Shown one piece after another: positions 35,180 to 53,479 of a stretch of DNA of 64,000 bases. The stretch spans positions 806,001 through 870,000 of the forward strand of contig SDOX01000006.1 of NCBI GenBank assembly GCA_004565275.1. Direction: 5' to 3'. Origin of the DNA: Nannochloropsis salina CCMP1776. Taxonomy: Eukaryota > Sar > Eustigmatophyceae > Eustigmatales > Monodopsidaceae. The translations under genes and the position numbers were made by a program. Each line of letters begins with the position of its first letter. Position 1 is the stretch's first letter. A model generated the notes under the pieces. It worked only from the letters and a program-made list of their open reading frames with translations. It made no database searches and was not told the DNA's origin.

Positions 35180-36915
35180 TCAGAAATCGACGTCGATTGC
35201 ACTATTTTTGCAAAATCCCATCTGGACGAGGGCTTCCTCAAGTACTAGAGCCCAGTGTGTCCAATGTATGCAACCTTGTGAAAAAACTGTGAAGGGTTCT
35301 CGCAGAGGCCCATCCGCACTAAGCTCCAATGTACTCCCATCCACAAATGTCCCGACTGCAAAGACAACTTCATCACCGTAACCTGGCGATACGCCCGCTG
35401 TAGGCCGAATGTAAGCCCCAATCGGACTCAACCGCTGCACTTGGTGACAAAATTGTAGAACTCGGTCACGACTTCCGACTTGCACGGCTTGAATGATATC
35501 AGTCCGATAGGTGCCGGGGGCAGGGTTGCACGGGAGTCCGAATCCGCTGCCCATCACCTCTGCGAGAAGCATTGCTCCTTTCAGAGACTCTCCTACAACT
35601 GATGGCGCCATAAAAAGACCCTGAAGAAGCCAACGGTTCTGGCCAAGTGTCGCACCCCCTTCCACACCTGGCGCGCTTAGCCGCTTGAAAGCTGCGTCGA
35701 CGTAATGTTTTTTGCCAATAATGTACCCGCCTGTAGGGGCTAGCGTGCCCCCGGGGTTCTACAATGACGATAGATGTGCTATGTAAGTTTTTGAGTGCAA
35801 GATTCCTATCGTTTGATCATCGCATGCAAAGGGCCTTTCTATGAAGGCATGCATTTTGAAGCACATCTTTTTAGCTAAAGTATACGGACATCTTCGCATT
35901 TGAAACCTCTTTCTATTCGTCGCAAAATTGATGACCCCTGTCGCACCTTTATCAAAGAACCCGCTATAATATCTGCACCCACATGAGTAGGCTCCAAATC
36001 TTCAACGAATTCCCCATAGCAATTATCGACAAAAACGATGAGCTCTCGATCCGGAAAAACAGCTCGAATATGGGCAATGACGTTACCGATTTCGGCGACT
36101 GGAATTGATGGCCGCCACTGATATCCACACGAGCGCTGGATGTGCAGAACTCGGATGTTGGCATCGGCGTCTATACGTCGATCTATCTCAGAGAGATTGA
36201 AGTACTGGCCGGGATCTACGGATGGTAGAAGGTCAACCTGATCGTACGCCACACCCCACTCTTCCAGACTTCCCGTAAGAAATCGCTGATTTGGAATAGA
36301 ATTATCATCTTCACCCTTATGAGCCACTCGTGTGCCGATCACCTCCTCCAAAGTATCATAGGGCTGTCCACTTAAACCCAGCATTTTATCCCCTGGCCGG
36401 AGGACACCGAATAGAGCGCATGAAATTGCATGGGTCCCGCTAAAGATCTGCACACGGACGAGGGCGGCCTCAGCTCCAAAAAGCTGCGCGTAAATCTCTT
36501 CCAAACTGTCCCGACCGACATCTCCATGTCCATACCCATCGATGCCATTGAACATGTGTGTCCCAACCTGCTGCTTCCGGAAAGACTTGAGCACGCGCTT
36601 CAAGATACGTTGAGTACGGCTATCAACGTCGTCAAATGCAGGCCTCAACCGCGCACGCGCCTCCTCTACGATTTCTTTAGCCGAAGCATCGTTATCTAAA
36701 ACAGTAGACGATCCATGCCGCATTATAAATTGAAGGGCATGCGCTCCTCGCTCTTTTGCTCGTAGGCCCATACCATGCAGAGCAGGTGAAGGGAAACCGT
36801 ATGAAGAGGAGAAGAAACTTCTTCGGAAAAGAGGTACAGGCATGTAAGCCACACAAGTGATAAAACATGCTAATAGAAGTACAAGTGATGCTATCTTCTT
36901 TTCGTACGAAAACAT
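35180..36915 (-). CDS. PLP-dependent enzyme of the 'aluminium resistance'/methionine gamma-lyase-like family
   Basis: Two exons, 36915-35947 and 35758-35180; 1548 nt, 515 aa. This is a fold-type I PLP enzyme related to cystathionine beta-lyase (COG4100). The N-terminus is a signal peptide (KIASLVLLLACFITCVAYMP), so secretory or plastid entry is likely; the +1 residue is Tyr rather than Phe. The enzyme core has HMFNGIDGYGHGDVGRDSLE, FSGTHAISCALFGVLRPGD, HIQRSCGYQWRPSIP and FVDNCYGEFVE, and the PLP lysine in ADIIAGSLIK, immediately before the intron. Exon 2 resumes NPGGTLAPTGGYIIGKK and RLSAPGVEGGATLGQNR, then a catalytic-domain C-terminus with RPTAGVSPGYGDEVVFA. Substrate is unknown; bacterial members are annotated for aluminium resistance, which need not apply here. 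Confidence 0.85.
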
Positions 36916-37469
36916 CTGGTCCTGCAGGATGTATGAGTTGTTGAGGAAATACTGAGTCGCAGTTGCCTTTCAGTCGCAAGGTTCACACACTAGAGAGATA
37001 ATCTTACAATCGAATACTACGTTTTCCTTTATCTGCAAGATGCACATGAAGAATGTGAAATAAAAAATGCCGGAAAAGGATCAAGCTATTTATCAAGCAC
37101 CATTCGTCTCTAAAGCCTGGGACGCGTATAATTGAAGTTCCCGCAACAACTAGGATTAGGAGGCAGATTGGAAATGACTGAAGTTCTCGCAGTGCACGGT
37201 GCTTTGAACGTACGTTGGATAACATATGTCTGTATCCATTCAGCTTTGCACAACAGTATATCGCGCGAAAACTGTTAAAAATGACAGTGATACAAAATCA
37301 GGAGGGTAATTTGATGGCCAACAGTCGAGTCTACCTGCTCTGGCAGAGGCGACGGCGGGCCGGGCGGGAGGTTGGCAGGCCGGCTAAAAGCTTCTTCTTT
37401 GAAGAGGATGAAACTCACACATCATATGTACATGTTGTGTACCATTACTATGATGAATGTAAACAGGCG
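36916..37469. other. Head-to-head intergenic region
   Basis: 554 bp between the PLP-enzyme start and the TatB-like start. The frame upstream of the TatB-like ATG is open back to 37215 and contains an in-frame ATG at 37281 (MTVIQNQEGNLM, then an Arg-rich run). Whether that part is translated decides whether the protein has an N-terminal extension. Confidence 0.4.
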
Positions 37470-38474
37470 ATGTTCGATGTCACTGGTCTCGAGGTCGTGA
37501 TTTTGATTGGAGCGGCTTCCTTTCTTCTTGGTAAGGACCTCGTGTGTTTCTACTCCCATCTTTGTCCTTTTGACTCTTAAAATTTTACGCTTTTTCCAGG
37601 GAAAAAGGAGGTCCCTCAGTTAGCGCGGATAATAGGACGAGGGACAGGAAAGCTTGTGGCTTTGTTGAACACAGCACGGGAGCAATTCGTTGATGCCACG
37701 CAGAATACGCACCTTTCGAAGGCAAGTCATATGAAAGCGGGGAGATGACATATAAGCACAGCCATTTAACCACAGAGCGTTGCACATGATTTCAACAGCT
37801 TACTGATGAAGTTCGACAGAACATGAATGAGCTTAATTCAATCCGCTCGGAAGTACGGGCGGCAGGTTTGCGGCCAAGCCGACGTATGCCTACGCCAGAA
37901 GCCGTAAGCAAGCTCACCAGTCCCCTTCAGCAGGAGAAGGAGATGAGCAGCTTTCCAAAGCCTTCCGCTTCGTCATGCGGTAAGCAGAAAGGCGGCTCAC
38001 TTGTTTTAGGAAAGAGCTCGGGCAGTAAATTCTCGAAGATTGGCCTTGACAAAAAGAGTAAGCTCGGTGAGCTTGCTATCGCAGAGCTCTTGTTGCAGGT
38101 ATGGGATGTGAGCGATGTCACCATTTGTGTCTTTCCCCGGGATATGCATGATGTGCGGGAATTTATCAGGCAAAATTATTTTCATCCTATTCTCCGCTGG
38201 ATGAAAAAAAAACGACTTGCTGTGATGTTAGTTTAATTTTTTCTACATAATTCGTTCTCGACATGTACAGGAATCAGTGCTGGGAAAAGAGGGAGGGACG
38301 TTGTGTAGAAGTCAACAGAAGCTTGTCCTAAGTCCACATGCAAAGGCTGGCTCCGCTGTCTTGGATGACGTTATTTTCGAGAATTTGCTGTGGAACCAGA
38401 TGGACCACACTCTTAAGAGAAATGAGGGAGGAAAAATACCCGACGTACCACCACAAAAGGACAGTGCGACTTAA
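37470..38474 (+). CDS. TatB-like (MttA/Hcf106 family) protein, probably organellar
   Basis: Four exons: 37470-37530, 37600-37721, 37799-38098, 38271-38474; 687 nt, 228 aa. Intron 2 has a GC donor (AAG|GCAAGT). TatB is the receptor subunit of twin-arginine translocation, which moves folded proteins across inner or thylakoid membranes. The first residues read MFDVTGLEVVILIGAASFLL, then GKKEVPQLARIIGRGTGKLV. Against E. coli TatB (MFDIGFSELLLVF...LGPQRLP) the M1-F2-D3, Glu8, Gly21 and Pro26 positions coincide without gaps; the hinge Pro22 is Lys. A long amphipathic helix follows (LTDEVRQNMNELNSIRSEVR, like TatB's LTPELKASMDELRQ), then a variable Ser/Lys-rich tail. A targeting peptide is absent unless translation starts upstream at 37281. 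Mitochondrial TatB (partner of mtDNA-encoded TatC) is favoured over plastid Hcf106; this is inference. Confidence 0.72.
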
Positions 38475-38607: not shown

Positions 38608-39438
38608 TTAAGTGCGTTTCCATTTACTTAAACTCTCCATGAGACAACTCAATGCGAAGTGTACACCAACACTTAGCGTGTGCAGAATAAAACATGCTCC
38701 AGCTTGAACTAGGCGATAATATCGTTTAAATGGGGCAAGGGCTGGAGGAGGAGAAGTCATGGTGGCGACGTTTATGCCGGTGTAAATTCCCCATGGCAGC
38801 AGCAGCCACCAATGATAGGCTGACAACAGGAGAAAGGAAAAATAATTCCAGCTCCAACTCCGGTAAAGTGGCCGATGGACCTTGCTAACGGCGAATATGG
38901 GAGCTGACACGAGTAGTATGTGCTGCAAGTGGAAGAAGAGTACCTCCAATGGCGTAGCGGGGTAATTTGGGAAACAGAAAGCCAGAGATGGTCCCCATGT
39001 GAGCAAACTCAAAGCATGGAAACAAATAAACGAAGAATAACATGGAACAACAGTACATACGAAGTATAAAACCGTCGTGACATGGCAGGGTTGCAGAAAA
39101 TAGGCAGGATGCGATGGTAGCTTTTTGACGTCGAGTTTAAGCGGAACCTGAAGAACGAACGTCATAAGTAAGGCGTAGCTCCATAGGACTTGAAGTTTGG
39201 TAGGCGTGTATGTTATTCTCAAGGCCCGCACTTGCTTCTCCATGTTTTTCCATGCGGACAGTAGTAAAGGGCCGAATAACAAGACAGAGATAACTATTTC
39301 GACAGCGTGTTGGAAAGGCGAGGAATGCCAGCGACTGAGGTATTCGTCTCCCTCGGGGTCTCTAGAATCGAAAGAAAGTTCCGAATTCAGACTCTCCAAG
39401 AGATTTGCCAGTAATCGTACGAGAGGAAAGGTATGCAT
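38608..39438 (-). CDS. TMEM164: TMEM164-like multipass membrane protein (putative acyltransferase)
   Basis: Single exon, 276 aa from the ATG at 39438 (MHTFPLVRLLANLLESLNSE). The open frame continues upstream without an obvious better start, except a hydrophobic MHTLIAMLYPVPLLSASFVV that could be an extra N-terminal segment. About seven membrane helices. Family landmarks: WHSSPFQHAVEIVISVLLFG near the start, FLQPCHVTTVLYF (human NPCHLVTMMHIF; the Cys is the proposed catalytic residue), FPNYPATPLEVLFFHLQHIL (human FELEIYYIQHVML; the His is the partner), and YRLVQAGACFILHTL near the end. Human TMEM164 makes C20:4 ether phospholipids. Whether this alga's protein has the same acyl preference cannot be told. 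Convergent with the TatB-like gene, 133 bp between stops. Confidence 0.8.
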   Translation of the reverse strand: MHTFPLVRLLANLLESLNSELSFDSRDPEGDEYLSRWHSSPFQHAVEIVISVLLFGPLLLSAWKNMEKQVRALRITYTPTKLQVLWSYALLMTFVLQVPLKLDVKKLPSHPAYFLQPCHVTTVLYFVCTVVPCYSSFICFHALSLLTWGPSLAFCFPNYPATPLEVLFFHLQHILLVSAPIFAVSKVHRPLYRSWSWNYFSFLLLSAYHWWLLLPWGIYTGINVATMTSPPPALAPFKRYYRLVQAGACFILHTLSVGVHFALSCLMESLSKWKRT

Positions 39439-40049
39439 CGTTGCCTGTCGCGGGAAACGAGCCTGTGGGAGCCGATGAGAAGTGAAAAGACATGGGCCTG
39501 GATCAGAGGGGTTGCTTAAGATGCACCTGGCAGGAACCGCTTGTTTACAAGATAACAACGAGAATACGACAAACGACGCCGACAAGAGTGGAACGGGGTA
39601 TAACATGGCAATGAGGGTGTGCATGATCGACACGGGGATCGTGAGATGACCCGTCAACATCAGTCGCACGCGCAAGGGGCGGGCACGGTAAGTTCCCATC
39701 CGAGCATCGCCGGCGAGGCCAAGGAATCCTGGAGGCACCAGGATGGCGCCCACCCAGCCATCTGGCCGAGGTATGGCTATATCCAGTTCATGACAGCTTT
39801 TGTGGACACTCGACCCACAGTGCATACGGGGAATGTGAGGAGAAGAACAATCTTGGCACTGGTGAGAGGTTCCCCCACTACCCAACGTCAACCTCACACG
39901 ACACGACCCCGCCTGGCCTTCTCCAGTCCGCGGCCCACCACACGTGTGGGTAACACCGTGCGAGTCTTTTTCGGAGCGCTTGAGTGCGAGCATTCACGTG
40001 ACGATCTGATATGCATCCTTTTTGAAGAGCATTACGCAGGACTATCGCG
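39439..40049. other. Head-to-head intergenic region
   Basis: About 610 bp between TMEM164-like and bystin starts. The minus-strand frame of the TMEM164-like gene stays open through most of it, which may reflect an unannotated N-terminal extension or chance. Confidence 0.4.
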
Positions 40050-51846: not shown

Positions 51847-52515
51847 TTAATTTTCCCACTTCACGTACCAAGGGGCTGTGTCCGTTCGAAAATCAGTTTC
51901 TGTCCAAGGAGTGAGGAGGACTTTCCCATCACTTTCCTTAACATGCGCCAAGGCGAGAGAGAGCGGTGCAGGGCCACGCACGACCTTCCCTGTCTTGTCA
52001 TACTGGGAGCCGTGGCACGGGCAAATAAATTTGTTTTCAGCTTTGTTCCAGGGTACAACACAGCCCAGATGCGTACAGACAGCGTTAAGACCGTAATCCT
52101 CAATAGTCTTGTCCTCCTTCACAATTAGATAGGTGGCATCGCCTTTCAGGCCCTGCACCAAGCTGCGGTCACCCGCTTGATGAGTCGACAGCCAGCCTTG
52201 CACGGTTACATCATCTCCAAGTGCATCTTTTGCTGCCAGTCCCCCACCGGCCCCACCGCCTGTGCGGGGCACAAAGAAGGCAATGTAGGGCACCGCCAGA
52301 CCCGCCACATTCAGGCCCACAGAGCCCAACAGGATCGTGTTCATAAGCTTGCGACGGTCCATATCAGGAACAAAGGGCTCTTCACCCACGGCTTCAGCCA
52401 TCTTGGTGACGATTCGCCCGCTGTTGGTGCGCGCCACTGAGGCAGAAGGGATGCCAGGCACCAAAAATCCGTGGACGCCACAGAAGAAAGTAGCGAGAAC
52501 AAAAGCAGTCTTCAT
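51847..52515 (-). CDS. petC: Cytochrome b6f Rieske iron-sulfur protein, plastid-targeted
   Basis: Intronless, 222 aa. Start chosen at 52515 because it gives a signal peptide ([16 protein letters not shown]) followed by FLVPGIPS, the GF-type heterokont site; the frame is open 19 codons further up. The transit region is followed by [20 protein letters not shown], the single membrane anchor, and a Gly-rich hinge ([20 protein letters not shown]). The Rieske domain carries both cluster motifs, [10 protein letters not shown] and CPCHGSQYD, with two Cys and two His ligands. The closing [20 protein letters not shown] is typical of PetC. It passes electrons from plastoquinol to cytochrome f in the thylakoid lumen. 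The twin Arg in DRRKLM before the anchor fits Tat-dependent insertion of PetC. Confidence 0.96.
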
Positions 52516-53479
52516 ACTTGCGCGTTGCCAAGCTGTATTAATTCGCCTGTCCCGGAAATAATGAAGAGGCATTTTAGCAACTCAAGCAAGTGAAATATGC
52601 AAAACATCGATCGACGTGATGTGCCGCTTGTAGTTTCCCAAGTGAGCTTTCGTCATAACTCTTGCTCATCTATCACTTGTGCACCATTCGTGGACCGCCT
52701 CCTGCCCGGACAAAATTGGGGCCACAACTGAAATCACTGTCAATAAGCAATTTAAAAACACCCCGCAATGCACCTGGTGTGCAAGGCTCAAATGTCATGA
52801 GGTCGAACCGGGCGAGGCCCAGCAGATTTCTGACACCACTCACAGACAATACACAGTGACGCACAGGAACGGAAGAGGGATGGGTAACCCTGTCTTCTCC
52901 ACAAAAGTCCAGTGCATCCGATGCGACAGCTTCTAAATCTCTAGACCATGCTGTCGGTGCGACGACCTTCGTTCAGTCTGGATTGACCCGATAATCCACA
53001 CCTGCGAGACCAGCGTATCTTCGACCGCCAACCAGGTGGGCGAGCTCGGGCAGTCCACGGACGATCCGCTTCCTCCTCGCCCTCGCCCCGCCCTCGCCCC
53101 TGATCCTCATCCTCCAGCGCCCCGCCGCATCGCCCATGTTCGTAAGCGCCTCACACGCCCTGTCCTAGCCTGCCTCGGCTCTTTGCTAGCCGAGCTCAGC
53201 AAGACGTCGCATGACTGTCGCGTTGACTTGTCAATTCATTTGTGTTTCCTCACCAGTGCGCTTATTAACGATTAATGTCGTGATGATGCCGTTGCTGTCA
53301 GGATCTGATTTGTGATGCGGAACTACGCAGGTCTTCGGTGCTTTACGCGTCTTTTCAGTGCCCAAGCAAAAGCTCTGAGTCGGAAAAAGTCACATGCTCA
53401 AGGAAGTTAAAAAATGGAGTTGACCTTTTGAATTTTTTCTTTCCAGAATTCCTCCCCCCCCGATAAAAGATAGCAAAAG
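52516..53479. other. Head-to-head intergenic region
   Basis: About 960 bp between the Rieske and HEAT-repeat starts, the longest divergent gap of the window. Several short open frames, none convincing. A C-rich stretch lies at about 53065-53135. Confidence 0.45.

Follow-up and report, generated by a model that had tools for sequence, protein, structure and literature searches.

A probable nucleus-encoded mitochondrial TatB in Nannochloropsis salina CCMP1776

A gene of four exons within a 64,000-nucleotide stretch of Nannochloropsis salina CCMP1776 DNA (contig SDOX01000006.1, the whole of which is referred to here as the window) probably encodes a nucleus-encoded mitochondrial TatB, a reading that is given a probability of about 0.8. 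TatB and TatC together are the receptor for folded substrates that carry a Tat signal, and the product most likely forms such a substrate receptor with a mitochondrially encoded TatC, with the Rieske protein probably being its cargo. Nucleus-encoded mitochondrial TatB is already known from plants, stramenopiles, cryptists and jakobids, with this gene a further member. The type of gene is therefore not new, as the available extracts of Petru et al. 2018 (PMC6251230, stramenopiles and cryptists) and of a study of jakobids (PMC7050145) precede it; what is added to the nucleus-encoded mitochondrial TatBs is a gene model with exon boundaries. The observation in the initial annotation of this DNA, a nucleus-encoded TatB-like protein with a bacterial-type N-terminus, is confirmed, and the interpretation given there is partly supported, being mostly right and not new.

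The gene lies at 37470-38474 (+) and its splice model, in which exons were deduced from splice motifs and frame without transcripts and with a non-exhaustive search of alternative splice choices, gives an open coding sequence of 687 nt for 228 amino acids and a stop. Exon 1 (37470..37530, +; MFDVTGLEVVILIGAASFLLG) encodes the TatB N-terminus and the transmembrane segment, with its last codon split with exon 2; the alignment to a local TatB profile starts here at residue 1, and the hydropathy maximum covers residues 6-21. It is followed by a GT-AG intron (37531..37599, +; GTAAGGAC...CTTTTTCCAG) and by exon 2 (37600..37721, +), which carries the opening part of the helical region, about residues 21-61. 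When 2,023 segments of the window are scored with the local TatB profile, the frame of exon 2, taken by itself, ranks first (E = 0.0029), and it reaches E = 0.033 against a stricter TatB profile. Intron 2 (37722..37798, +; GCAAGTCA...ATTTCAACAG) would be of the GC-AG type with the donor AAG|GCAAGT. In exon 3 (37799..38098, +) the TatB-like region ends, the profile alignment running on to residue 72-74, and most of the tail is encoded, whilst exon 4 (38271..38474, +), beyond a further GT-AG intron (38099..38270, +; GTATGGGA...ACATGTACAG), continues in frame through the C-terminal tail as far as the stop. In-frame codon scores are positive in all four exons.

That the gene is nuclear, as initially annotated, is borne out by the three introns of the model and by eukaryotic neighbour genes, which together also rule out bacterial contamination. 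Genes for PetC, bystin, ferroportin and a class-II DAHP synthase are among the neighbours, and the window belongs to the nuclear genome of a photosynthetic eukaryote. The divergent neighbour (35878-36969, -) encodes a protein of the methionine gamma-lyase family (E = 1e-80) with a hydrophobic N-terminus, and the convergent neighbour (38611-39993, -) is an open frame of 461 amino acids that on reading has several hydrophobic stretches and has no Pfam match at E <= 0.001.

Judged by sequence comparison, the product is shown to be a homologue of bacterial TatB, with similarity that spans the transmembrane helix and the helical region that follows, and not to be TatA-like. The top match in NCBIfam is TIGR01410 (tatB), with E = 1.3e-4 and 22.4 bits for residues 1-83 and E = 0.0012 and 19.4 bits for the whole protein, both scores being below the curated cut-off of 56.5 bits. 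Next in the NCBIfam results are two models named sec-independent translocase (PRK01371), again under cut-off, and a Rickettsiales TatB model matches residues 1-83 only, at E = 0.11 and also under cut-off; the tatAE model (TIGR01411) is absent up to E = 10. Pfam-A, including the TatA_B_E (MttA/Hcf106) profile, gives no Tat match even at E = 10 for the whole protein, residues 1-83 or the tail, with the one Pfam match to residues 1-83 being an unrelated DUF (E = 0.044). As a Pfam scan overlooks this gene, surveys based on Pfam alone could undercount genes of this kind. In the PDB there are two weak matches, both to TatA chains (E = 0.18 and 0.67).

A much stronger result comes from the local profile, for which 126 TatB loci were gathered (1 from a Shinella plasmid record, then 80, 6 and 29, and 10 that were found with the window protein), some of them being the same gene fetched twice and all 126 having a TatB frame. 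Removal of near-copies (at least 80% identity) and of one locus whose row starts with G (L110) left 47 TatBs, and against these residues 1-83 score 32.9 bits (E = 6.1e-9), with about 70 N-terminal residues aligning gap-free. From 5,000 shuffles made of each type, those that gave a score never reached this value, be they full (0/4,873) or segment-wise (0/4,979; 0/9,852 together). The match persists at E = 3e-7 with a profile of the 39 TatBs that remained once loci retrieved by the query, together with copies of them, had been taken out. Against a TatA profile, made of the 15 loci that fit the TatA motif among 30 fetched, the protein scores 1.8 bits, a value that 80 of 4,289 scored shuffles reach. 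TatA identity is rejected on this difference of 1.8 against 32.9 bits, and on a tree of 40 TatBs (39 together with L117, the top match in the direct search described below), 15 TatAs and the window protein, in which the TatAs split from the TatBs and the window protein with a support of 100/100. That support covers the TatA/TatB split, the branch of the window protein being very long (3.86) in a tree whose bootstrap had not settled; the small size of TatB is also said to have hampered phylogeny in the extracts of Petru et al. 2018 (PMC6251230). The TatB-like character and bacterial-type N-terminus that had been proposed thus find a significant profile match in TIGR01410 and the local profile, with the MttA/Hcf106 profile of Pfam silent.

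The coordinates and the residues initially picked out, M1, F2, D3, E8, G21, P26 and a Lys in place of Pro at position 22, are all correct under the splice model, and are presumably those that line up with E. coli TatB. Among the 47 bacterial TatBs M1 is conserved in 45, D3 in 44 and E8 in 45, and G21, P22 and P26 each occur in every row. The window protein keeps Glu8, Gly21 and Pro26 and has Lys22 where all bacterial rows have the hinge proline. Residues 25-42 are amphipathic, with a moment matched by 66 of 5,000 shuffles, whereas residues 61-80, the helix singled out in the initial annotation, are not clearly so (443 of 5,000). The region at residues 22-45 is basic, with five basic residues and one acidic, and none of the 47 bacterial TatBs has so few acidic residues here; the net charge is ordinary, with 25 of the 47 at least as positive, and the scarcity of acidic residues weakly supports its reading as the mark of an import signal. 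The C-terminal tail has no significant match in Pfam (to E = 10), NCBIfam or the PDB and is novel in this sense, as had been claimed. It may resemble the tail of plant TatB. As far as tested, the features that appear to be the protein's own are therefore Lys22, relative to bacteria, and this tail.

Where translation starts bears on how the protein would be imported. The start at 37470 is favoured by the residues MFDV, which resemble the start of bacterial TatB. Upstream of it is a candidate in-frame extension of 63 Arg-rich codons (37281..37469, +), with in-frame ATGs at 37281 and 37314 and a frame that is open back to 37182. The same mitochondrial TatB could be translated from either ATG with an Arg-rich presequence that is cleaved after import, a variant compatible with the main explanation and one to be held tentatively as a real but lesser possibility. 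The first 29 residues from 37314 contain 8 basic residues and 1 acidic, as might suit such a presequence, and the codon score of 37281-37469, at 0.184, is coding-like: 74% of 233 leave-one-out coding windows score no higher, only 2% of 107 open wrong-frame windows reach it and an open stretch scoring so well occurs in 0.18% of 20,000 Markov copies. Against this, when all open windows elsewhere are taken together, among them coding ones, 12% reach this score, and synonymous codon choice over the 63 codons gives 0.025, which 11% of wrong-frame windows equal or exceed and which is a measure on which real exons are also near zero. As synonymous choice gives no discrimination, the upstream score is one of amino-acid make-up. 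The further stretch of open frame at 37182-37280 has a codon score of about zero. The fit of M1-F2-D3 to the bacterial start, at which M1 and D3 are nearly invariant, also argues against an upstream start.

Bacterial relatives were sought directly in 289 genomes of one class, taken as Alphaproteobacteria, and 130 of these genomes have a match at E <= 0.1. Among these matches the strongest start at residue 1, but a minority of the weaker ones, toward E = 0.1, fall outside the TatB N-terminus or in large unrelated frames, and so not all 130 are TatB. The top match (L117, in genome G010) has 37% identity and E = 2.6e-10, followed by a runner-up at 2.4e-7, and the best-matching place in this search matches TIGR01410 above its cut-off. 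Of 50 TatB loci examined, 49 also contain a TatC frame within the one short locus, as judged with a TatC query that itself matches TIGR00945 at 6.4e-60, and the one exception is a locus only 1,834 bases long; within the 64-kb window no TatC match was found. An origin specifically in Alphaproteobacteria is unsupported because match rates are equal in class and phylum, with matches at E <= 1e-3 in 40 of the 289 genomes from the class and in 39 of 299 from the phylum, the two draws overlapping in some genomes. Among 72,556 plasmid records 34 match at E <= 10, and the best 20 of these 34 comprise 17 annotated as TatB, 1 as TatA/TatE family, 1 hypothetical and 1 unannotated. The last of these, from Shinella, has the lowest E (0.03); TIGR01410 identifies it as a TatB, and it adjoins a TIGR00945 TatC. 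Scans with residues 1-92, which detect close relatives only, gave 19 pattern stretches in viral contigs and 218 in the genome collection, with none of either confirmed at E <= 1e-3.

Could the protein be a plastid TatB, of the Hcf106 type, serving the thylakoid Tat pathway of this alga? In favour of this, the alga is photosynthetic and has in the window a gene for PetC, the Rieske protein of the cytochrome b6f complex, a protein for which chloroplasts rely on the Tat pathway according to extracts of a plant review (PMC5855863). However, no start of the signal-peptide-plus-transit kind is visible on reading, even with the upstream frame included, and the chloroplast TatA in the PDB is the one matching only at E = 0.67. 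It also counts against a plastid protein that the tatAE model matches a Synechococcus control genome yet omits the window protein, although this argument is weak because the TatB model matches Synechococcus as well. A plastid role is quite unlikely. The weak scores against bacterial models, the loss of the hinge proline and the long branch might point to a nuclear copy of a mitochondrial tatB that is degenerating or no longer works, but this is highly improbable given the uninterrupted coding sequence across four exons with usual splice-site ends, the positive codon scores of every exon and the retention of Glu8, Gly21 and Pro26.

A mitochondrial TatB of plants was reportedly described by Carrie et al. 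in 2016. Plant mitochondria contain TatB and TatC (PMC5855863), and the extracts of that review and of Petru et al. 2018 (PMC6251230) state that plant TatB is mitochondrial and that its loss is lethal, and that altering the Tat signal of the Rieske protein blocks its assembly into complex III. The initial annotation held the TatC partner of stramenopile mitochondria to be poorly known, yet it had already been identified, since searches that started from plant mitochondrial TatB recovered homologues encoded in the nucleus from both stramenopiles and cryptists (PMC6251230). Within the stramenopiles the extracts of that paper name oomycetes in the text and ochrophytes in a figure legend, with ochrophyte sequences plotted, and they report mitochondrial TatC in every TatB-positive eukaryote. 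An older survey credits Ectocarpus with a single nuclear TatA/B and with TatC in the mitochondrion, and for Nannochloropsis a paper on the organelle genomes has a table in which tatC seems to be entered for both organelles. The jakobid Andalucia godoyi has a nuclear TatB with TatA and TatC encoded in the mitochondrion, and other jakobids are cited there, as unpublished, for the same arrangement (PMC7050145, in extract).

The window gene is like the stramenopile and cryptist TatBs, by their description in the extracts of PMC6251230, in being a nuclear gene of TatB type with a transmembrane Glu. It is likewise like plant mitochondrial TatB in being a nucleus-encoded TatB, again by description (PMC5855863, PMC6251230), but location, TatC complex and essentiality are reported for the plant protein in these extracts whereas the window gene is known from its sequence. 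With Andalucia godoyi it shares a nuclear gene, Andalucia having mitochondrion-encoded TatA besides TatC (PMC7050145, in extract). With bacterial TatB, as in TIGR01410, it shares the start, the transmembrane Glu8, Gly21, Pro26 and the helical region after, and it differs in being nuclear and split by introns, in Lys22, in its tail and in a score under the curated cut-off.

As a mitochondrial TatB the protein would be synthesised in the cytosol before its import into the organelle. The signal for this may be internal, in the basic (22-45) and amphipathic (25-42) stretch after the transmembrane helix, for which we take the Bcs1 type of signal to be a parallel, or import might instead use the upstream presequence. 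TatB would then insert N-out/C-in into the inner membrane, where its transmembrane helix with Glu8 would bind the mitochondrially encoded TatC, and the two may act as a TatBC receptor to which folded proteins bearing a Tat signal bind. Chief among these would be the complex III Rieske protein, in line with what is proposed for plants. Counted against the mitochondrial reading are the lack of any Pfam Tat match, the TIGR01410 scores below cut-off, the weak PDB matches to TatA alone, Lys22, residues 61-80 that are not clearly amphipathic, the branch of 3.86 and the lack of preference for class over phylum.

How a mitochondrial TatBC can work in the absence of TatA is a mechanistic question still to be answered, and the plant review, in the extracts available, asks where TatA is (PMC5855863). 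It is conceivable, though doubtful, that a TatB with a Lys22 hinge and a lineage-specific tail works with TatC alone, free of TatA, so that one TatA-family subunit would provide both receptor and translocation of folded proteins in the mitochondria of this alga. TatC-only machineries failed to move the tested substrate across a bacterial membrane in a study that covered TatAC and TatC-only and not TatBC, which counts against a general transport role (PMC6251230, in extract).

The Rieske protein proposed as mitochondrial cargo has its plastid counterpart encoded in the window too. This is the product of the nuclear petC (51850-52581, -), which matches TM_PetC at E = 3.9e-20 and is the Rieske protein of the cytochrome b6f complex. 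On reading, its beginning resembles a signal peptide and a twin-Arg (RRK) precedes the transmembrane anchor, an N-terminus that probably points to an alga with a complex plastid.
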